From: Streptomyces buecherae
GTDB lineage: Bacteria > Actinomycetota > Actinomycetes > Streptomycetales > Streptomycetaceae
Length of the DNA: 64,000 nucleotides
Assembly: GCF_014295035.1 (NCBI RefSeq)
Contig: NZ_CP060404.1
Location: 2,878,501-2,942,500 of the forward strand
Direction of reading: 5' to 3'
The notes under the pieces were generated by a model. It was not told the origin of the DNA. It worked only from the letters and a program-made list of their open reading frames with translations, and ran no database searches. Position numbers and translations under genes: made by a program. Below are positions 2,379 to 12,847 of the stretch, piece after piece (the stretch's first letter is position 1; every line of letters starts with the position of its first letter).

Positions 2379-3557
2379 TCAGTAGACCGGCTTCTCCGGC
2401 TCGATCTGGTGGACCCAGCCGATCACGCCGCCGCCCACGTGCACCGCGTCCGCGAAGCCCGCGGACTTGAGCACGGCGAGCACCTCGGCCGACCGGACGC
2501 CCGTCTTGCAGTGCAAGACGATCTTCTTGTCCTGCGGAAGGCCCTGCAGGGCGTCGCCCATCAGGAACTCGTTCTTCGGGATCAGCCGGGCGCCGGGGAT
2601 GGAGACGATCTCGTACTCGTTCGGCTCGCGGACGTCGATGATCTCGATGCCCTCGCCGTCGTCGATCCACTGCTTGAGCTGCTTGGGCGTGATGGTCGAA
2701 CCCTGCGCCGCCTCCTGGGCCTCCTCCGAGACCACGCCGCAGAACGCCTCGTAGTCGATCAGCTCGGTGACCGTCGCGTTCGGACCGCAGACCGCGCAGT
2801 CGGGGTCCTTGCGGACCTTGACCTGGCGGTAGGTCATCTCCAGGGCGTCGTAGATCATCAGGCGGCCGACCAGCGGCTCACCGATGCCGGCGAGCAGCTT
2901 GATGGCCTCGTTGACCTGGATGGAGCCGATCGAGGCGCACAGCACCCCGAGCACGCCGCCCTCGGCGCAGGAGGGCACCATGCCCGGCGGCGGGGGCTCC
3001 GGGTACAGGCAGCGGTAGCACGGGCCGTGCTCGCTCCAGAACACGGACGCCTGGCCGTCGAAGCGGTAGATCGAACCCCACACGTACGGCTTGTTGAGCA
3101 GCACGCACGCGTCGTTGACCAGGTAACGCGTGGCGAAGTTGTCCGTGCCGTCGACGATCAGGTCGTACTGGGAGAAGATCTCCATCACGTTCTCCGCCTC
3201 AAGGCGGTCCTCGTGCAGCACGACGTTCACGTACGGGTTGATGCCGAGGACGGTGTCGCGCGCGGACTCCGCCTTGGAGCGGCCGATGTCGGCCTGGCTG
3301 TGGATGATCTGGCGCTGCAGGTTCGACTCGTCGACCTCGTCGAACTCCACGATGCCGAGCGTGCCGACGCCGGCGGCCGCCATGTACATCAGGGCGGGCG
3401 AGCCGAGGCCGCCCGCGCCCACACAGAGCACCTTGGCGTTCTTCAGTCGCTTCTGCCCGTCCATTCCCACATCGGGAATGATCAGGTGACGCGAGTACCT
3501 GCGGACCTCGTCCACGGTGAGCTCGGCAGCCGGCTCGACCAGGGGTGGCAGCGACAC
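2379..3557 (-). CDS. moeZ: MoeZ: sulfur-carrier adenylyltransferase/sulfurtransferase
   Basis: E1-like enzyme that adenylates the C-terminus of small sulfur-carrier proteins (MoaD, CysO, ThiS-like) and passes sulfur to them through its rhodanese domain. Seen: ThiF/MoeB domain with GAGGLG near residues 47-52 and the DxxDxSNLQRQ segment; two zinc pairs CYRC and CAVC; a C-terminal rhodanese domain with the active loop HCKTGVRS. The 392-aa length fits the family. GTG start chosen because GGAG lies 6 nt upstream and the protein then begins SLPPLVEPAAEL, as in relatives; the longer frame would run back to 3632. A SigR-type promoter precedes it. Its mycobacterial orthologue sits beside the DUF3152/FasR/RhlE block seen here at 17-25 kb. 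Confidence 0.93.
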   Translation of the reverse strand: MSLPPLVEPAAELTVDEVRRYSRHLIIPDVGMDGQKRLKNAKVLCVGAGGLGSPALMYMAAAGVGTLGIVEFDEVDESNLQRQIIHSQADIGRSKAESARDTVLGINPYVNVVLHEDRLEAENVMEIFSQYDLIVDGTDNFATRYLVNDACVLLNKPYVWGSIYRFDGQASVFWSEHGPCYRCLYPEPPPPGMVPSCAEGGVLGVLCASIGSIQVNEAIKLLAGIGEPLVGRLMIYDALEMTYRQVKVRKDPDCAVCGPNATVTELIDYEAFCGVVSEEAQEAAQGSTITPKQLKQWIDDGEGIEIIDVREPNEYEIVSIPGARLIPKNEFLMGDALQGLPQDKKIVLHCKTGVRSAEVLAVLKSAGFADAVHVGGGVIGWVHQIEPEKPVY

Positions 3558-3599
3558 GGGGAACTCCGTAGTTGATGGGAGCAGCGTTGTTCTTCTGGT

Positions 3600-3625
3600 A
3601 ACACTGCCACGCGGTGTCTCATTCC
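3600..3625 (-). promoter_or_regulatory. SigR-type promoter of moeZ
   Basis: Minus strand reads GGAAT, exactly 18 nt, then GTT, the consensus of the thiol-stress ECF sigma factor SigR. It lies about 45 nt upstream of the moeZ GTG start, the correct side and distance. It predicts moeZ induction under disulfide stress. Confidence 0.75.
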
Positions 3626-4368
3626 GTGACACCTGGTCCGATGCGCGAGACGATTTCGTCCCAGTAGCCGGGCAGCGTCTCCCACGCGTCGGCCTGGCCG
3701 TGGCCCTGCCGGTCGGTGAAGTAGATCGTGCCCGCTCCCTGCCAGCGCGCGATGCGCAGCGCCTCGTCCAGATGCGTGCGGGGCACGCCGTGCACCAGGT
3801 GGCAGAACCGCTCGGGCGGGTAGTCGGCCGTCCACGCGGCGGCCTGCGACCACCGGTAGTCGGCCCACTGCCCGGAGAAGGTCACCAACTGGTCGGCGCT
3901 CTCCACGTAGCTCGGATGCGGGTGCGTGCCGTGCGCGAACACCAGGTACGCCGGCGCGCGCAGGGCGCGCAGGGTGGTCGCGATCCGGCGCACCTCGGCG
4001 AGGCCCGGCCGCTCGGTGGGACATCGATCGAGGTAGAAGCCGTCCACCTGGTACCACTCCAGGAAGCGGTGCGCGTCCGAGAGCAGTTCACCGAACGGGC
4101 GGGTGCCGAACCGCACGTCGAGGTGGCCGAGCACCCGGCCGCGCGCCTCGTGCAACCGGGCCGCCGCCGCCAGGCAGTGCGGATCGGGGCGGGCGCCGGG
4201 GCCGCGCGCCACGTTGAGCACCGCCCAGTGCAACGGGGTGTACGGGCGCGCCAGTTCGGCCCACTCGGCCGGCGCCACCAGCGGGTGCGCGCAGCCGGGC
4301 ACCCCGAAGCCGAGCCGGCCCGCCACCGCACCCGTGCGCCGGGTGCCGGTGGAGGTCACATACGGCAT
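3619..4368 (-). CDS. Spherulin-4/GH135-like glycoside hydrolase (last gene of glycan cassette)
   Basis: Single-domain TIM-barrel protein of the spherulation-specific family 4 (GH135-like), related to fungal Sph3, which cuts alpha-1,4-linked GalNAc in galactosaminogalactan. 249 aa; first barrel strand near residue 50 (LNVARGPG), GHLDVRFG near 81-88, and the acidic strand VDGFYLD with Asp109 and Asp114 as candidate active-site residues. No signal peptide is visible, so it may act inside the cell or leave by an unknown route. ATG at 4368 overlaps the 3' end of the epimerase gene by 13 nt, so the two are translated together. Substrate is not shown by the sequence; GalNAc-containing glycan is inferred from family and neighbours. 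Confidence 0.8.
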   Translation of the reverse strand: MPYVTSTGTRRTGAVAGRLGFGVPGCAHPLVAPAEWAELARPYTPLHWAVLNVARGPGARPDPHCLAAAARLHEARGRVLGHLDVRFGTRPFGELLSDAHRFLEWYQVDGFYLDRCPTERPGLAEVRRIATTLRALRAPAYLVFAHGTHPHPSYVESADQLVTFSGQWADYRWSQAAAWTADYPPERFCHLVHGVPRTHLDEALRIARWQGAGTIYFTDRQGHGQADAWETLPGYWDEIVSRIGPGVTE

Positions 4369-5420
4369 GCCGCCTCCATCCAGATGTCGGCCAGGGATTC
4401 CTCCAGGCCGATCCGCGTCCGCCAGCCCAGCCGGTCGCGCGCGGTGCGCACGTCCGCCTGCTGCCAACTGCCGCAACCGTCCGGGTACACGTGCCCGACC
4501 GGCCCCGTCGGGTGGTCGGGCCCGTGCTCGCCCCGGCCGTGCCCGGGGCCGTGGCCGGACCCGCCCGCCGGGCCGTGGCCGGCGCCGAGCGGCAGCCCGT
4601 GTCCGCCGGCGTGCGCCAGACCGGGGGGCTGGGCGGGGTGCGGCACGGAGCGCAGCGGGTGCGATCCGCCCTCCATGTCGTGCAGCGCGCCACCGAAGCC
4701 CGCCACCCGGGCCAGCACGGCGGCGGCGTCCCGCATCCGCACGGCCCGGCCGGTGCCGATGTTCACCACGCCCTGGGCGGCCGACAACGATGCCGCGTGG
4801 ACGGCCCGCGCCACGTCCCGTACGTCGACGAAATCGCGTTGCGCGCCGAGCCCGGGGAACTTCAGCTCGTTGTCGCCCGCCTGCATCGCGCGCCGCATGG
4901 TGTCGGCGAGCCGGCCGAGCGGCGAGCCGGGCGGGGTGCCGGGCCCGACCGGCGAGAACACGCGCAGCACGATGGCGTCGAGCCCGGAACCGAGGACCAG
5001 CTCCGTCGCGGCCAGCTTGCTCACCCCGTACGGGCCGCCCGGGCGCGGGATGGCGTCCTCCGCGGTGGACGAGCCGGGCTGCGATGGCCCGTACTCGGCG
5101 GAGCAGCCGAGCTGCACCAGGCGGGCGCCGCAGCCACTGCGCCGCAGCGACTCGCAGATGGTGGCGACGGCCACCGTGTTGTGCCGGGTCAGCTCCCGGG
5201 CGCCGCCACGCGTCGTGCCCGCGCAGTTGATCACCACGCCGGGGTGGACGGCGTCCAGGAACCGGGTCAGCGCCCCGGGGCTGCCGGTGGACAGGTCGAA
5301 CCGGACGTCGGCGGCGTCGCCCCGGCCCAGCTCGGTGAGCTGCACCGCCGGGTCGGCGAGCAGATGGTCGGCGACGTAGCGCCCGATGTAACCACTGGAG
5401 CCGAGCAGGAGAACGCGCAT
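4356..5420 (-). CDS. NAD-dependent sugar-nucleotide epimerase/dehydratase
   Basis: Extended short-chain dehydrogenase of the UDP-sugar epimerase type, 354 aa. Seen: NAD-binding GSSGYIG at residues 7-13; catalytic Ser about 107 (GCSAEYG), Tyr131 and Lys135 (YGVSK). A His/Gly-rich insert (about residues 254-310) interrupts the substrate-binding half and is unusual for the fold. The ATG overlaps by one base with the TGA of the 48-aa upstream gene (TGATG), and its own end overlaps the GH135 gene. Likely makes or interconverts the nucleotide sugar used by the PelF-like transferase; which sugar is unknown. Confidence 0.85.
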   Translation of the reverse strand: MRVLLLGSSGYIGRYVADHLLADPAVQLTELGRGDAADVRFDLSTGSPGALTRFLDAVHPGVVINCAGTTRGGARELTRHNTVAVATICESLRRSGCGARLVQLGCSAEYGPSQPGSSTAEDAIPRPGGPYGVSKLAATELVLGSGLDAIVLRVFSPVGPGTPPGSPLGRLADTMRRAMQAGDNELKFPGLGAQRDFVDVRDVARAVHAASLSAAQGVVNIGTGRAVRMRDAAAVLARVAGFGGALHDMEGGSHPLRSVPHPAQPPGLAHAGGHGLPLGAGHGPAGGSGHGPGHGRGEHGPDHPTGPVGHVYPDGCGSWQQADVRTARDRLGWRTRIGLEESLADIWMEAACRM

Positions 5421-5566
5421 CAGCCACGCCCCCGTTCCGCGGTGCCGCTGACGAGCGGGGCGCCGGCGGCGCGACGGCACTGGGGACGGGCTGTCCCGGC
5501 GAGCCGGACGGCTCCGGGGGTCCCGGCCGCACGGCGGGCGGGGCGGTCGACGGAATGGTTGGTCAT
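5420..5566 (-). CDS. 48-aa small basic protein coupled to the epimerase gene
   Basis: Not recognised. A 48-codon frame starts with ATG after an excellent AAGGAG eight nt upstream and ends in TGATG, overlapping the epimerase ATG by one base. The peptide is Arg/Ala/Gly-rich with one Cys (residue 30), no membrane segment and no signal peptide. Either a real small protein or a coupling cistron that delivers ribosomes to the epimerase start. Without it the epimerase would have a poor ribosome-binding site of its own, which is the main support. Confidence 0.5.
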   Translation of the reverse strand: MTNHSVDRPARRAAGTPGAVRLAGTARPQCRRAAGAPLVSGTAERGRG

Positions 5567-5685
5567 CTCGCTTGCTCCTTGTGAGGGTTGCGCCGCCCCG
5601 GCCCCGTGGACGGGAGGTGCGGCGGCAGAGGTCGTGGGTCGTGCGCCGGCTTGCGCGGCGCACGCGGTGCCGGCGGCGGTGCGCC

Positions 5686-7896
5686 CTACGGGGACACGGC
5701 CGGGCCACGGGATCGCCGCGCCCAGCCCTCGCACGGCGCGGGGCTGCCCGCGCCGATCTCCCGTGGCACAGCGCCGCGACGGCGGGTGCCGTCGGTCGCC
5801 GTGCGCGTGGACGTGGCGTCCCGCACCGGGGTGCGGTGCGCGCCGGTGTCGGGGGCGGCGGGGTGACCGCCCCGGGTGGCTGGGCCCGTGTCGTACGCGC
5901 GCGGGCGCGCGCCGGCCGGCGGGTGGGCGTCGGCGGCGTGCGCCCAGGGGCGGGCGAGCGCGCCGAGCGCGTAGGCGCCCAGCACCAACGCGCCGGTGGC
6001 GCAGGCGAGCGTGGTCACGGTCGCGGGCCCGCCGACCGCGACCAGGCGCTCGACCGGTCGGGCCAGCCCCGCGCCCCGGGGCGCTTCGGCGGCCAGCGCG
6101 GTCGCCACCGCCGCCGCCTCGATCCCGCAGGCCAGGGCGAGCCCGCGGCGCGCGGCGCGGCGGAACCCGTGCGCGGACAGCAGGCGCGCGACGAACAGCA
6201 GCAGGCCGAGCGCGCCGGCGGCGAGCGCGGCCCCGGGCCCGAAGCCGGGTCGCGGTCCTAACCCGTGCCACGACAGGGCGCACCAGGCCGCGACGAGCAG
6301 CGCGCCGAGCGCGCACCCGAACAGCGCCAGCGCACCAGCGAACGCCCTGCGCGCCCCCGTCGCGAACCCCGCCAACTCCCGGCTCGCCCACAGCGCACGG
6401 CGGGTGCGCGCGGCGAACCACCGCGCGCACCAGGCGGCGGGCGGCCACGCGCCGATGAGCGCCGCCACGCCCACCGCGCCGGGCGCGACCTGCCGCCAGT
6501 CGTCGGACCCCCGCCACTCGTGGAAGTCGGGCCACCCCTGGAGATCGAGCCAGCCGTGCGGGTCGGGCCACCCGCCGAGGCCCGGAAGGCTCGGGTACGG
6601 CGGCTGCCCGGTGCTCCAGCCGGCACCGAGCGCGCCCGCCAGCGCCTCGGTGAGCAGCCAGTTCCCACCCAGCAGGAACCCGAACAGCCAGCACCACCAC
6701 ACCGGCCCGAGCCCCCACCGCCACGGCACGCGCCGAGACCGGCGCGCGGAGGCCGAAGCCGACTTCCCGCGCGCCACGCCGCGCCCCGGCGCACCGCCGC
6801 ACGCCGCACCGCCCGCGCGCGGGGTGCTCGCGCGGGAGCAGACGAACGGGGCGCCGGCAGGGGGTCGCGCCGGCGAGCCGTACGGCGGGGCCGCGGGCGC
6901 GGCGTGCCCGCACGGGGTGTGCTCGAACGGGGCGTACGCGTACGGGGGGTAGGGGTCCGGTGGGTGGGCGTCGGGGGCGTACGCGTACGGGGCGTTCTCG
7001 TACGCGTGGGGCGTGGGGTACGGGTACGGGTACGGGTACGGGTACGGGTACGCCGAGGCGACGGGCGGGGTGGCGGGGCCGTACGGGCTGGCGGCGGGTG
7101 CGCCGGGGTGGTCGGCCCCGGCGGCTCCGGCGGCTCCGGCGGCCGGCCGTGGTGCTGTGTCGTCCGCCAGTGCGCCGGCGCGTGGCGTTCTGGCGTACAA
7201 CTCCTCGGCCAGCGAGAACACGTCGCGATGCCGGTAGCGCGCGGCGGAGCGGTCGCCGACCCCGCGCGCCTCAAGCCCCGCGGCGATCTCCCACGGGTCG
7301 ACGGCCCGCTCGCACAGCTCGCGGTGCTGGTGCAGCAACTGCCGCACCGGATCGACGTACCTCCCGCGCCGCCGCTCCCCCGGCCGCGCCCGCCCGGCGC
7401 CCGGGCCCGGGCCCGACGAACCAGCGCCGGCCGACCGCGCGGGGGCGGGCCCCTCGTCGTCCGACGGCGCCTCGATCGACGGCGTCTCGTCAGACGGCGC
7501 GCCATCCGACGAGGCGGCCTGCGCACGCCCGAAGGCCGCAGGGGCAGCCGGAGTCGAGGCAGCCGGGGTCGGGGCGGGCGTCACCGAGGCGGGCGGGCCG
7601 TCGTCGGTCGGGTCGGTGGGGTGGGGGCGTGGGCCGAGGGGGGCCGGGTGGCGGGGCGCCGAAGCGGACGGTTCCGCATCGGCCGGCCCGCCTCGCCCGC
7701 CGGGGGTGCGCACCTCCCGCGTGGTCTCGGCCGTCGCGCGAGGCTCCGCAGCGCCGGCCAGCGGGGCGGGACCGGCGTGGTGCGGGGGACGCGGGTCGGG
7801 TTCGGGCGCGGTCGGGACGGCGGGCGTCGGGCCGGTGGCGGCGGCGCTGGCCGGGGGCGGGGGCGGGGTGTCGGGGGCCCGCTCGGGCGGCGTCAT
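5686..7896 (-). CDS. Large integral membrane protein of the glycan cassette
   Basis: 736 aa, function unknown. Residues 1-170 are Pro/Ala-rich and disordered. Residues about 170-235 hold a short conserved-looking helical block (VDPWEIAAGLEARG, HRDVFSLAEELYAR). Then comes a Pro/Tyr-rich linker with a (Pro-Tyr)n run near residue 285. About six hydrophobic helices follow between residues 389 and 650 (for example WWCWLFGFLLGG), and a charged tail. ATG overlaps the TGA of the upstream transferase gene (ATGA), so the pair is translationally coupled. Likely the membrane anchor or export partner of the PelF-like transferase, but it has too few helices to be PelG itself. Confidence 0.75.
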   Translation of the reverse strand: MTPPERAPDTPPPPPASAAATGPTPAVPTAPEPDPRPPHHAGPAPLAGAAEPRATAETTREVRTPGGRGGPADAEPSASAPRHPAPLGPRPHPTDPTDDGPPASVTPAPTPAASTPAAPAAFGRAQAASSDGAPSDETPSIEAPSDDEGPAPARSAGAGSSGPGPGAGRARPGERRRGRYVDPVRQLLHQHRELCERAVDPWEIAAGLEARGVGDRSAARYRHRDVFSLAEELYARTPRAGALADDTAPRPAAGAAGAAGADHPGAPAASPYGPATPPVASAYPYPYPYPYPYPTPHAYENAPYAYAPDAHPPDPYPPYAYAPFEHTPCGHAAPAAPPYGSPARPPAGAPFVCSRASTPRAGGAACGGAPGRGVARGKSASASARRSRRVPWRWGLGPVWWCWLFGFLLGGNWLLTEALAGALGAGWSTGQPPYPSLPGLGGWPDPHGWLDLQGWPDFHEWRGSDDWRQVAPGAVGVAALIGAWPPAAWCARWFAARTRRALWASRELAGFATGARRAFAGALALFGCALGALLVAAWCALSWHGLGPRPGFGPGAALAAGALGLLLFVARLLSAHGFRRAARRGLALACGIEAAAVATALAAEAPRGAGLARPVERLVAVGGPATVTTLACATGALVLGAYALGALARPWAHAADAHPPAGARPRAYDTGPATRGGHPAAPDTGAHRTPVRDATSTRTATDGTRRRGAVPREIGAGSPAPCEGWARRSRGPAVSP
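7015..7052. repeat. GGGTAC hexamer microsatellite inside the membrane-protein gene
   Basis: About six tandem copies of a 6-nt unit (+ strand GGGTAC), encoding alternating Pro-Tyr on the minus strand. Because the unit is six bases, slippage changes repeat length without breaking the frame. Confidence 0.85.
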
Positions 7897-10709
7897 GCCT
7901 CGGCCCCCTTTCGCTTTCTCGATCGGCCCCGCGGCGCCTCAGCCGCCTCGGCACGGGGCGCGCCCGCGCACGCCGTCAGCGGCGGGGCCGCGTCGGGTCG
8001 CCTCGCCCAGCCCGGCGCGGCGCGCCCCGCTGCCTCGCGCGCCGGCGCGCGACCCGCGCGGTCCAGCGCCGTCCAGTGGCCCGGCACGTGTGCCTCCGCG
8101 GGGTGGGCGAACGGCAACGGGCCGCCGTCGGCGCTCACTTCCGCATCGGCGCGGCGCACCGGGGCGTGCGACATCAGCTCCAGGTAGAGGCCGCGGAACA
8201 CCGCGGCGTTGTGCTCGGCGTCGAAGAGTTCCAGCGCCCGGGACCGGGCGGCGGCGCCGAGACGCTCCCGGCGCACGCCGTCGCGCAGCAGCGTCAGACA
8301 CGCCGCCGCCAGCGCGCGCGGGTTGCGCGGCGGCACCAGCAGTCCGGTGTCCCCCACCACCTCGGCCACCGCGCCGACGTCCGTCGAGACCGTGGCCCGC
8401 CCGCGGAGCATCGTTTCGATCAGCCCGACCGGGTCCCCATCGGCCAGGCTCGACCGCACGACGACGCTGGCGGCGGCGTACGTCTCCGGCAGGTTCGGCA
8501 CGTCCCAGTCGCCCAGCGTCTCGAAGGTGACCGGGCTCCGCCCCGCCGCGTGCGCGTGCGGCGCCTCGTCGGGGAAGAGTTGCGCGGCGAGCGCGGCGCA
8601 CCGCGTCCGGTAGGCCGCCGCACCGAGCGGCCCGGCGCCGGCCCGGGGCCCGTGGCCGTCGGTCCCGGACCACGGCCCGCGAGCGTCAGAGCCGACCCCG
8701 GGAACGCCGGACCACGGCACCACGGCCGCGCGCCGGGCGCACCCGCCGGCGCCGTGGCGCGCACCGGCGCGCGCCGCGCGGCGCCAGGCGCGGCGCGACA
8801 CGCCCTCCCGGCGTTCCCGCACCACACCGCCGCCGGCCGCCGCCGCACATCCGAGGCCGTTCCGACCGGCCGTCGCGCAGCCGCCGCCGCGCGCCACCAC
8901 GGCGGCGCAGCCCACGGGCACCGCGCCACCGCGCCCCGGCGGGGCCGCCGCGACCGCCCCGTACGCCGGCACCCCGTACCCCGGTGATCCGCAGCTCACC
9001 GGTCCGCACGGCACCGATCCGCACGCCAACCCCTCGTAGCCGAGCGGCCCGTGCGCCGCCGCGTCGCAGGCCGCTCGCCCGTAGGCCAGTGCCAGCGGTG
9101 CGGCGGCGTCGAGGTGGGCCGTGTCGAGGTGGGCCGTGTCGGGCGGGCAGGTGGCGAGGGCGCCCGGCACGCCGGGGGCGGCCGGTCCGGTGTCCACGAT
9201 CCGCAGTCGGGCGCCGGGCTCCGCGCGGCGCACCTCGGCGAACGCGTGCAGCAGCCCGATCAGGTCCCGCGTGGGCTCGATGCGGCCGACCCACAGCAGC
9301 GTGCGCCCGTCGTCGGCGTCGGCCGCACAGTCGCCGCCCGCGGCGTCGCCCGCGCCGTCGTCGCCCACGGCGGCGAACCGGCGCGCGTCCAGGCCCGGGT
9401 AGACCGTCCGCACCCGCGCCGGGTCGGCGCCGCAGCGCTCCTGCCAGCGCCGGGTGTGCGCGCCGCCGGCCGTGACGAGGTCGGCCCGCGCGTAGACCTC
9501 GGCGGTCAACTGGCGGTGGAAGGAGGCGATCAGGGCGCGCACCGGCGCGGAGTGGGAGGCGTGGCCCGGCGGCGACACCGGGTCGGTCGGGTCGGGGACA
9601 AGGGGGGTGAGGTAGTGCTCGCGCAGTCGCGAGCCGTGCTCGGTGACCAGCAGCGGCGTGCCGAAGAAGCGCTTGGCCAGCAGCCCCGGCAGCGCGGCGA
9701 GCCCGCCCGACGTGGCGTGGCACAGGTCCACGCCGGCCAGGCCGCGCCCCGGCCGCTGGCCCCCGGCCGGGTCGGGACCGCGCCCGGCCCCGTACCAGTC
9801 GAGCGAGAGCGGGCGCAGCGCGCGCTCCAGGTAGCGCAGGACGGTGAGCAGGTCGGCGACGCTCGCGCGGTGCGCGTCGCCCATGGCGCCCGGCGCGCGG
9901 CAGGCGGCCTCCAGCAGCCGGGCCGCCGCGTCGGAGCGGATCGCCGAGGCCAACCCGCCGCGCTCCCGGGCCAGCTCGGCCAACCCGTAGAGGCCGTCGG
10001 CGAAGGTGCGGGAGGGGACGGCGTACCCGCCGGGGCGCTCGGGGGGCGCGTCGGACCCGAGCGGACGTGGGGCGTCGTGCCCCACAGTGGCGAAACGGTC
10101 CGCCTGACGCGCGCGGCGCGCCGCCCCCGCACGACCCCGCACCGGCCCCGCCGACCCGGCCCGCACGCCCCCGCCCGCGTCGGCCTCCGGATCGGCGCTC
10201 GCCCCGGCCTCCGCCCCGAGCTGCGTGCCGGGTTCCGCACCGAGCTGCGTGCCGGGCTGCGTACGGGCGTCGCCGCCGTCCGCACCACGCGTTAAGGCGT
10301 CCGCCCCGACGCCGCACGCGACACCCGTCGCGTCGGTCTCCACCCCCTCGACACCCGCCGCCCCGCCGCCCGGCACGTCGACGGCCGGCGATTCGATGGC
10401 CGCCGCGCTGATGGCCCGCGCGAGGCGCCCGAAGTGCTGGGCGAACAGCGCGCGCTCCCGGCGTCGGTAGGGGCGCGCGGGGCCCGGCATCGACGCGTAC
10501 GGAGGCTCGCCCCACAGCGGCGCGGTGCGCACCCGGCGCACCTGGCTCGGCAGCGGCAGCCAGCCGGCGGCCTCCTGCTCGGCGCTACGGCTGAGCCCGC
10601 AGACCTCGAACTCGTGCTGGGCCAGCTCGCGCACGAGCCGGTCGCACCACCGCCGTTCCGCACCGTTCGCGTACGGATAACCACCTTCGGTCAGCAGTCC
10701 CACGCGCAC
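7893..10709 (-). CDS. PelF-like family 4 glycosyltransferase (DUF3492 type), with large insert
   Basis: Cytoplasmic retaining transferase of the GT4 family. The start (VGLLTEGGYPYANG.ERRWCDRLV) is the DUF3492/PelF signature. A GT4 nucleotide-sugar domain follows: LLWVGRIEPTRD near residue 455 and the donor site DGDPVGLIETMLRGRATV, then VSTDVGAVAEVVGDTG. 938 aa is nearly twice the PelF length. The extra length comes from a disordered region around residues 100-190 and a Gly/Ala/Cys-rich insert at about residues 510-716, with many Cys. GTG start at 10709. First gene of the cassette; its stop overlaps the membrane-protein start. Probably polymerises the glycan whose sugar is supplied by the epimerase. 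Confidence 0.82.
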   Translation of the reverse strand: MRVGLLTEGGYPYANGAERRWCDRLVRELAQHEFEVCGLSRSAEQEAAGWLPLPSQVRRVRTAPLWGEPPYASMPGPARPYRRRERALFAQHFGRLARAISAAAIESPAVDVPGGGAAGVEGVETDATGVACGVGADALTRGADGGDARTQPGTQLGAEPGTQLGAEAGASADPEADAGGGVRAGSAGPVRGRAGAARRARQADRFATVGHDAPRPLGSDAPPERPGGYAVPSRTFADGLYGLAELARERGGLASAIRSDAAARLLEAACRAPGAMGDAHRASVADLLTVLRYLERALRPLSLDWYGAGRGPDPAGGQRPGRGLAGVDLCHATSGGLAALPGLLAKRFFGTPLLVTEHGSRLREHYLTPLVPDPTDPVSPPGHASHSAPVRALIASFHRQLTAEVYARADLVTAGGAHTRRWQERCGADPARVRTVYPGLDARRFAAVGDDGAGDAAGGDCAADADDGRTLLWVGRIEPTRDLIGLLHAFAEVRRAEPGARLRIVDTGPAAPGVPGALATCPPDTAHLDTAHLDAAAPLALAYGRAACDAAAHGPLGYEGLACGSVPCGPVSCGSPGYGVPAYGAVAAAPPGRGGAVPVGCAAVVARGGGCATAGRNGLGCAAAAGGGVVRERREGVSRRAWRRAARAGARHGAGGCARRAAVVPWSGVPGVGSDARGPWSGTDGHGPRAGAGPLGAAAYRTRCAALAAQLFPDEAPHAHAAGRSPVTFETLGDWDVPNLPETYAAASVVVRSSLADGDPVGLIETMLRGRATVSTDVGAVAEVVGDTGLLVPPRNPRALAAACLTLLRDGVRRERLGAAARSRALELFDAEHNAAVFRGLYLELMSHAPVRRADAEVSADGGPLPFAHPAEAHVPGHWTALDRAGRAPAREAAGRAAPGWARRPDAAPPLTACAGAPRAEAAEAPRGRSRKRKGAEA

Positions 10710-10780
10710 GTTCGCACCCCGATCTCCCTGGTAGGCAGCCGCCGTGAGGCAGCGGCAGCACGCTATGCGCGGGGCGGGGC

Positions 10781-10808
10781 GGCGCGACGGACGGTTGTCC
10801 GTCGCGCC
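10781..10808 (-). terminator. Terminator of the ABC-transporter operon
   Basis: Perfect 12-bp stem GGCGCGACGGAC / GTCCGTCGCGCC with GGTT loop, 54 nt after the ATPase stop codon. A second perfect inverted repeat, GCCGTAA-CTT-TTACGGC (10826-10842), lies between the stop and this hairpin. That repeat may be a first terminator stem or an operator for the glycan cassette, whose start is 120 nt further on. Confidence 0.65.
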
Positions 10809-10861
10809 ACCAGAAGGGGTGAACAGCCGTAACTTTTACGGCCAGTCGGCGTTGCGAGGCG

Positions 10862-12847
10862 CTATACGACGGCCTCCACCCGCTCGGTCGCCACGGCCTC
10901 CACCGGCCGCTCGGCTCCTGCCAGCAGGGGCACCGCCGCCAGCAAGGAACGGGTGTACGGGTGTTGCGGGTCGTCGTACACGGCGTCCGTCTCGCCCTCC
11001 TCGACGATCCGGCCACCGCGCATGACGGCGACCCGGTCGCTGACCTGTCGTACGACGGCCAGGTCGTGGGCGATGAAGATCAGCGCGAGGCCCAGCTCGC
11101 GCTGGAGGTCGCCGAGCAGCCGCACGATCTGGGCCTGCGTGGTGACGTCGAGCGCGGAGACCGGCTCGTCGCAGACGATGAGCCGGGGCTCGGGCGCCAG
11201 CGCCCGCGCGATGCCGACCCGTTGCCGCTGGCCGCCACTGAACTCGTGCGGGTAGCGGTGGTACCAGTCGGGGTCGAGGCCGACCCGTTCCAGCAGCCCG
11301 CGCACCCGCGCGACGATCTCCGGCCCGGTCAGCCTCCCCGCGGCGCGCAGCGGGTCGGCGATGGACTCGCCGATGCTGCGGCGCGGGTTCAGGGACGCCA
11401 CCGGGTCCTGGAAGACCATCTGCAACTCGCTGCGGAACGGGCGCAGTTGGCGCTCGCGCAGCCCGCCGATCTCGCGGCCCCGGTAGCGCAGCGAACCGCC
11501 AGACGGCTCCAGCAGGCGGACGATCATCCGGCCCAGGGTCGTCTTGCCGCTGCCGGACTCGCCGACGACGCCCAGCGTCTCGCCGGCGCGCAGCGTCAGC
11601 GAGACGTCGTCCACCGCGACCGTGCGGGCCCGCCGCCCGCCGAACTCCCGGCGCAGCCCGGCCACCTCCAACAGCAGTTCGGGCTCCGCCGCTCCGCTCG
11701 CCTCCCGGTACGCGGCGGCGGCCGTGGTCGGCGCGGGGCCAGCGAGGCCCCTGCCCGCCGCGTCCGACGCCGCCGCCTTCGGCTCGCCACCGGGGGCGGC
11801 CTCGGTGGCGGGCTCGGGCGCCGTCTCGGCGGTGGTCCCCGCCTCGCGCCGGCTCTCCGCCGGCGCGGGGACCGGGACCGGGGCCCGGTCCCCGCATGCC
11901 TGCTCGACGCGTGGCACCGCCGCCAGCAGCGCGCGGGTGTACGGCTCGCGCGGGGCGCTGAGCACCGCGTTGACCGGGCCGCGCTCGACCGCCCGGCCCG
12001 CGCGCATGACCAGCAGGTCGTCCACGCTGGAGGCGGCGACCCCGAGGTCGTGCGTGACCAAGAGCAGGCCCATGCCCGTCTCGGCCCGCAGTTCGGCGAG
12101 GAGCGCGAGGATCTGGGCCTGCACGGTGACGTCGAGCGCCGTGGTGGGCTCGTCGGCGATCAGCAGACGCGGTTCGCACGAGAGCGCCATGGCGATCAGC
12201 GCGCGCTGCCGCATGCCGCCGCTGAACTCGTGCGGCCGGGACCGGGAGCGGCGCGCCGCGTCCGGGATGCCGACACGGTCGAGCACCTCGACGGCGCGGG
12301 CGCGCGCCGCGCGCCGGGACGCGCCCCGGTGGTGCACCCGGTACACCTCGGCGATCTGGTCGCCGATCGCCAGGTACGGGTCGAGCGAGGACAGCGGGTC
12401 CTGGAAGACCATGGCCGCCACCCCGCCGCGTATCCGGCGCAGCGCGGCGTCGTCGGCGGTGAGCACGTCCCGCCCCGCGACCCGTACGACGCCGCTGGCC
12501 TGGGCGCCGGTGCCACGGTGCAGGTCGAGCAGGGCGAACGCCACGGTGCTCTTGCCCGATCCGGACTCCCCCACGATGCCGAGCGCGGCGCCCGGCTCCA
12601 GCGTGAAGGAGAGCCCGTCCACGGCCCGTACGGTCGCCGCCCCGGCGCCGGGACCGGAGGTCGCGGCGCCGCCGTCCGCCGCCGGGAAACCGACGCTGAG
12701 GTCCTCGACCCGCACCAGCGGCTCCGGCGCCGACGCCTGCTCGGGACCGGTCGCGGCCTCGGTCGCGTTCTGCCCGGGCCCGGGCCCGACCCTGGTCGCG
12801 TTCCGCTCGGTCGTGACTCCTTCCGGTTCCCACCGTTGTGCGCTCAT
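10862..12847 (-). CDS. Oligopeptide ABC transporter, fused double ATP-binding protein
   Basis: 661 aa with two complete ATPase halves, a DppD-DppF fusion that powers peptide (or nickel-type) uptake. First half: Walker A GESGSGKST near residue 90, signature FSGGMRQR. Second half: GESGSGKTT near residue 440, signature FSGGQRQR, Walker B LIVCDEP. The halves are joined by an Ala/Pro/Glu-rich linker of roughly 80 residues. The ATG overlaps the stop of the upstream permease gene (ATGA), making it the last gene of a four-gene operon. The family is sure; the substrate is not. Confidence 0.9.
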   Translation of the reverse strand: MSAQRWEPEGVTTERNATRVGPGPGQNATEAATGPEQASAPEPLVRVEDLSVGFPAADGGAATSGPGAGAATVRAVDGLSFTLEPGAALGIVGESGSGKSTVAFALLDLHRGTGAQASGVVRVAGRDVLTADDAALRRIRGGVAAMVFQDPLSSLDPYLAIGDQIAEVYRVHHRGASRRAARARAVEVLDRVGIPDAARRSRSRPHEFSGGMRQRALIAMALSCEPRLLIADEPTTALDVTVQAQILALLAELRAETGMGLLLVTHDLGVAASSVDDLLVMRAGRAVERGPVNAVLSAPREPYTRALLAAVPRVEQACGDRAPVPVPAPAESRREAGTTAETAPEPATEAAPGGEPKAAASDAAGRGLAGPAPTTAAAAYREASGAAEPELLLEVAGLRREFGGRRARTVAVDDVSLTLRAGETLGVVGESGSGKTTLGRMIVRLLEPSGGSLRYRGREIGGLRERQLRPFRSELQMVFQDPVASLNPRRSIGESIADPLRAAGRLTGPEIVARVRGLLERVGLDPDWYHRYPHEFSGGQRQRVGIARALAPEPRLIVCDEPVSALDVTTQAQIVRLLGDLQRELGLALIFIAHDLAVVRQVSDRVAVMRGGRIVEEGETDAVYDDPQHPYTRSLLAAVPLLAGAERPVEAVATERVEAVV

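Follow-up and report, generated by a model that had tools for sequence, protein, structure and literature searches.

Operons carrying agd3, which code for a CE18/CBM87 deacetylase, a cytoplasmic glycosyltransferase (GT) and a multispanning membrane protein, and which in some Actinobacteria also contain spherulin-4 genes, have been noted in bacteria but are uncharacterised (PMC7229062). Polymers containing galactosamine are also on record for Streptomyces, with no genes assigned to them (reports cited in PMC7229062). Other described systems to which such operons can be compared are pelDEADAFG of Bacillus cereus (PMC7112168) and the fungal galactosaminogalactan (GAG) cluster, composed of an epimerase, a GT, Agd3, Ega3 and Sph3. 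Here we analyse a cassette of this kind that ends at moeZ in a window of 64,000 nt of Streptomyces buecherae (assembly GCF_014295035.1, contig NZ_CP060404.1, positions 2,878,501-2,942,500; the window is the whole stretch analysed, and all coordinates refer to it). Uncharacterised Pel/GAG-type cassettes were already known as a kind; what is new is a core, developmentally expressed and partly disarmed variant, in which a GH135-like protein has lost its catalytic Glu and is conserved. Among the papers searched, none treats the moeZ-linked cassette as a system.

The GH135-like protein and its missing catalytic glutamate

The elements of the locus are the following:

2379..3557, minus strand: MoeZ adenylyltransferase/sulfurtransferase, the constant downstream neighbour (NCBIfam PRK07878 equivalog, 750.9 bits)
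3619..4368, minus strand: GH135-like (Spherulin4) protein (PF12138, 80.2 bits against a cut-off of 30.2, 2.2e-22)
4356..5420, minus strand: extended short-chain dehydrogenase/reductase (SDR), annotated as an epimerase (Pfam Epimerase, 125.7 bits, 2.6e-36)
5420..5566, minus strand: short open reading frame (ORF) of 48 codons that reaches the SDR start and shows no conservation at the protein level
5686..7896, minus strand: polytopic membrane protein, recognised by its transmembrane (TM) segments and N-terminal motif, without a Pfam family
7893..10709, minus strand: PelF-like GT4 with a DUF3492 domain, 938 aa (Pfam DUF3492, 94.5 bits, 1.3e-26; Glyco_trans_1_4, 4e-18)
10704..10863, minus strand: conserved leader/promoter region of the cassette (alignment across 36 loci)
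10778..10811, minus strand: 15-bp hairpin with loop AACC (pairing and covariation)

An earlier note, made from the letters of the window, had called the product of the last cassette gene a GH135 hydrolase. The family assignment stands, given the PF12138 match and a PDB search that retrieved Sph3 (5c5g/5d6t, 7e-6), but the activity is doubtful: in the alignment with Sph3 (5c5g) Asp114 is kept, and Ser165 occupies the position of the catalytic Glu222. The catalytic pair, Asp and Glu222 of Sph3, was taken from PMC12054363, which prints the Asp as 196; in the present alignment the Asp motif is at 166, given the chain offset by which the Glu is numbered 222. In 80/80 named Streptomyces loci and in 21/21 copies of another Streptomyces set (a few genomes are common to both) the Glu222 position holds Ser, Thr, Ala, Arg or Cys, and the catalytic Asp is kept in most of these moeZ-linked copies. 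Other genera have Ala, Cys, Leu or Asn at the Glu position, or no GH protein at all. Outside the moeZ-linked group, 25 GH135 proteins of Streptomyces and its order were compared, and all of them keep both residues. Because the Glu is lost in every moeZ-linked copy scored, the label 'hydrolase' is very probably wrong for this protein, which more likely holds a sugar chain than cuts it.

Between the window and Streptomyces zagrosensis, the ratio of nonsynonymous to synonymous substitution (dN/dS, a simple NG86 estimate for this one species pair) is 0.18 (GH), 0.11 (SDR), 0.07 (MoeZ), 0.35 (GT) and 0.61 (membrane protein), which indicates that the GH-like protein is under purifying selection. Most of the positions that presumably line its pocket are as in the Glu-keeping homologues (H28, D62, D84, R90, W105, Y106, W168, Y171 and H190). 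No hydrophobic segment that could serve as signal peptide or TM helix was found by hydropathy scan in the window protein or in 20 orthologues (the earlier note had likewise seen no signal peptide in the former), and since a signal peptide is absent the protein probably stays in the cytosol. No second GH135 gene was detected in the S. buecherae genome; two GH114-family genes lie elsewhere in it (C1:8147888-8148541 and C1:3356519-3357301).

Conservation, leader and expression of the unit

The genes stay together genus-wide. GT, membrane protein, SDR, GH and moeZ are all present in 66 of the 80 named loci. Most of the remaining loci are cut off by a contig edge; in L111 and L115 no membrane protein was detectable. 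The order of the genes is kept in 19/20 fetched loci, moeZ is present in 80/80, a GH orthologue occurs in 97/101 Streptomyces genomes (a few of the weakest matches being paralogues) and the SDR in 112/121 genomes of Streptomycetaceae, from 15/17 genera. The five minus-strand cassette genes and the junctions described in the earlier note were all found in the window (an ATGA overlap between GT and membrane protein, TGATG between short ORF and SDR, and a 13-base overlap between SDR and GH). The first is ATGA or GTGA in 60/66 loci and the last is kept nearly throughout the sampled loci, so these junctions are not due to chance; chance clustering of the genes is ruled out by synteny. The gap from GH stop to moeZ start is exactly 63 bases in 63/80 loci, and in the window moeZ starts (3557) 61 bases past the GH gene. 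The unit extends to moeZ, and a conserved hairpin leader stands ahead of it. The intergenic stretch between GH and moeZ (3558-3618), near-constant in length across Streptomyces, contains conserved GTGGCAGTGTTAC and GAGAACAAC blocks and is perhaps the moeZ promoter.

The leader was found in 87/102 sequences examined, most of the remainder ending before reaching the site. Its invariant blocks across the 36 aligned loci are AACG, AGT(T/C)AC, TTCACCCCTT and GGACAACCGTCC. In the hairpin 95% of cells are paired and four pairs have changes on both sides; its covariation score was reached by 0/500 shuffles and exceeds that of slid controls too. Rfam contains no family for it, the best sub-threshold match being Sr006 (29.6 vs 100 bits). 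The leader is a candidate regulatory element, which could act as RNA or DNA. Besides the hairpin and the invariant GGACAACCGTCC it has flanking AGTTACG/TTCACCCCTT boxes, and an upstream GAACGC-N15-GTTACG is our guess at an ECF-type promoter. A role as a regulon operator was unsupported, matches with three mismatches being at control level; among the matches listed, two relatives have a single exact one apiece, and both lie at the cassette, some 4 kb upstream of GH. Part of the unit has been lost in some genomes: the GT is truncated and the membrane protein gone in L064 and L115, the GH is gone in L102, and in L192 GT and membrane protein are both missing and the leader now stands ahead of the SDR, so the leader travels with the unit.

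The equivalents in S. coelicolor, assigned by gene order, are SCO5174-5177 (SCO5178 is moeB). SCO5174, SCO5175 and SCO5177 are upregulated in differentiated mycelium, by log2 2.2-3.8 or about 4-14-fold (PMC3610822), and a SCO5174 mutant produces less actinorhodin (PMC6585502).

Partner proteins and sister cassettes

The family calls made previously (PelF-like GT, SDR and GH135), and with them the resemblance to Pel and GAG systems, hold. The kinship is even closer than the letters of the window could reveal, since an Agd3-like deacetylase is encoded in the sister cassettes described below. The GT, described as a PelF-type GT4, has DUF3492 and GT4 domains, but the PelF equivalog NF038011 gives the window protein, with its large inserts, 64.2 bits against a curated cut-off of 100. 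With 938 aa it is unusually expanded (mostly 500-700 aa elsewhere), and large in-frame low-complexity inserts occur also in S. zagrosensis (L107, GT of 966 aa). The EX7E motif is intact in 82/84 scorable Streptomyces orthologues, but its first Glu is Asp in the window protein. A hydropathy scan found no signal peptide or TM segment in the GT, and no second DUF3492 gene was detected in the S. buecherae genome. The region of GT and membrane protein (5686-10709) contains large low-complexity, in-frame, GC-rich insertions, with 80-81% GC over 6-10 kb.

The membrane protein matches no Pfam family above cut-off. It has a conserved N-terminal motif of about 60 aa (DPVRxLxHxHRELCERAVDPxEIAAGLE...), which is common to several membrane proteins of other cassettes. 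The S. violaceoruber orthologue was modelled, with good quality in its TM part, and the best VIA-align matches of this model are MOP-superfamily flippases (MATE, MurJ and WzxE), a suggestive resemblance of the membrane domain. In line with the absence of PelG noted earlier, a profile search gave no match in the cassette or elsewhere in the S. buecherae genome; relatives have weak matches, which lie within very long frames and are confined to the C-terminal part of the profile.

The SDR retains Y131xxxK135 and has Cys106 at the catalytic Ser/Thr position, so that of the Ser/Thr-Tyr-Lys set of a canonical active extended SDR only Tyr and Lys are present. The residue is Cys in 100/101 of the Streptomyces copies; homologues from the type A cassettes described below and from other genera have Ser. 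The GalE-type 4-epimerase model TIGR01179 gives 30.7 bits against a cut-off of 262.3. The short ORF has its own ribosome-binding site and runs into the SDR start, but it is no conserved protein: comparable short ORFs end at the SDR start in 33/71 intergenic regions, their sequence is variable, and no Pfam profile matched above cut-off.

Fuller cassettes exist elsewhere in Streptomyces. Type A (L090, L092, L093, L104) is composed of an Agd3-like gene, GT, membrane protein, dehydratase, nucleotidyltransferase, SDR and GH135, and type B (L091, L097, L105) of an Agd3-like gene, GT, membrane protein and GH135; both have relatives in other actinomycete families. The Agd3 assignment comes from weak, sub-threshold Pfam matches (PF25115, 8e-5 and 0.009; CBM87, 0.016) but fits the operon description in PMC7229062. 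The GH135 proteins of both types keep the two catalytic residues, yet have no signal peptide, and type B adjoins, by inspection, a lipoyl-dehydrogenase-like gene. GH proteins of moeZ-linked cassettes group in a single clade (support 100/100), next to the clade of types A and B. A bridging cassette, L198, comes from a different genus of the family and is a full one of type A-like composition, with an Agd3-like gene, GT, membrane protein, dehydratase, nucleotidyltransferase, SDR and a GH with the Glu kept; in SDR and GH it stands near the moeZ-linked type, and no moeZ lies within the stretch fetched. L193 is intermediate, being moeZ-linked with Asp at the Glu position.

On this comparison of sequences, the moeZ-linked cassette is a reduced, derived relative, spread across Streptomycetaceae, of an exopolysaccharide (EPS) cassette with PelF-like GT, membrane protein, SDR and GH135, plus an Agd3-like gene. 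Deacetylase, dehydratase and nucleotidyltransferase would have been lost before the catalytic Glu, and then GH itself in some genera, an order and a direction that we infer. A search with a Streptomyces Agd3-like protein found no homologue in the S. buecherae genome, and none of the cassette genes codes for a deacetylase, PelA-type ones not having been searched for genome-wide. The cassette is not an isolated invention, and the earlier proposal of a separate, minimal and undescribed actinobacterial system that makes, exports and trims a polymer lacks support in that form: the cassette looks like a reduced descendant of the operon type already published in PMC7229062. Trimming is unlikely, and epimerase activity unproven, because the GH has lost its Glu and the catalytic Ser/Thr of the SDR is Cys.

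Interpretation and comparison with known systems

The reading to which we lean, with belief and doubt in about equal measure, is a machine for an envelope glycan that is induced in development and includes a GH135 pseudoenzyme able to bind the glycan but not to cut it. In differentiating mycelium, the PelF-like GT4 would build a HexNAc-type glycan in the cytosol, and the membrane protein, with a TM bundle like that of MOP flippases and a conserved N-terminal motif for docking, would move it across the membrane. The GH135-like protein would hold the growing chain uncut and serve as a clamp or gate that couples GT and exporter, and the SDR would supply the sugar nucleotide or, because of its Ser-to-Cys change, might be a second binding subunit. 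The conserved hairpin leader stands at the head of this unit. The fuller version, a genus-wide developmental system, expressed under a new structured leader, in which a GH135 turned non-cutting, cytosolic glycan clamp links PelF-type synthase and MOP-like exporter, is put forward tentatively, as possible rather than probable.

Several points tell against this interpretation. The glycan, its export and its binding by the GH-like protein are inferred, and a new catalytic residue may exist elsewhere in that protein, whose predicted structure (pLDDT 47) is too poor for pocket inspection. In several related genera GH is absent and GT, SDR and moeZ are retained, so that GH is dispensable there. The VIA-align matches of the membrane protein (MATE 5xjj, Z 10.2, 245 residues, 4.8 A; MurJ 6nc9, Z 10.1, 225 residues, 4.8 A) are, with Z of about 10 for a helical bundle, under the level that the tool calls safe, and Foldseek alone found no significant match to the model. 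The window GT itself has drifted, with Asp for the first Glu of EX7E and Arg for the motif Lys, the latter change being common to S. zagrosensis.

A GH135-like protein re-wired for a new activity on the same glycan (transglycosidase, lyase, or hydrolysis via other acids) would agree with its strong purifying selection and with invariants found only in its clade (W48, R115, Q160, R172-W173-S174-Q175, H193, W209-Q210, T218-D219 and W236). We consider it unlikely, since no invariant acid replaces E222 in the loop, where the position varies among S, T, A, R, C, L and N, and D84, common to the Glu-keeping homologues, is not a new residue. Improbable to a similar degree is a slowly decaying relic, a former polymer cassette that persists through residual or moonlighting roles. 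The partial or complete loss of GT and membrane protein in L064, L115 and L192 and of GH in L102 and several genera, the relaxed dN/dS of GT and membrane protein and the low-complexity inserts of the window GT all point that way, but GH is retained in nearly all Streptomyces genomes, the sequences of SDR and GH change slowly, the leader is highly conserved and expression rises in differentiation. An active minimal Pel/GAG-like EPS system, which makes, exports and trims one polymer as proposed in the earlier note, could draw on the intact EX7E of most GT orthologues and on the sister cassettes with a deacetylase-like gene and a Glu-keeping GH135. It is, however, very unlikely, given the loss of the Glu in all moeZ-linked copies scored, the Cys of the SDR, the lack of a signal peptide in GH and of a deacetylase in the cassette, and a genome in which neither Agd3-like protein nor PelG was detected.

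As a core, developmentally induced cassette of Pel/GAG type with a conserved pseudoenzyme, the unit offers a target of four defined genes (SCO5174-5177) and a clean case in which to test how a binding subunit arises from a glycoside hydrolase, and its hairpin leader is a testable regulatory element.

Compared with the fungal GAG cluster, the cassette has in common homology to Sph3 (GH135) and an SDR gene, but its GT is a cytosolic GT4 and not an integral-membrane synthase, there is no deacetylase, and the GH135 is without Glu222 and, unlike the secreted Sph3, without signal peptide or membrane anchor. With pelDEADAFG of B. cereus it shares a PelF-type GT4 and a membrane partner; PelD, PelE, PelA deacetylase and PelG are not recognised in it, all four having been reported missing in the earlier note as well, and the GH135-like protein replaces the PelA hydrolase. 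Closest are the bacterial agd3 operons (PMC7229062), which follow the same logic of GT, membrane protein and spherulin-4 and whose composition is that of the paralogous Streptomyces cassettes L090, L091, L093, L097, L104 and L105; from these the moeZ-linked cassette differs in having no Agd3-like gene, a GH135 without the catalytic Glu and a different locus.

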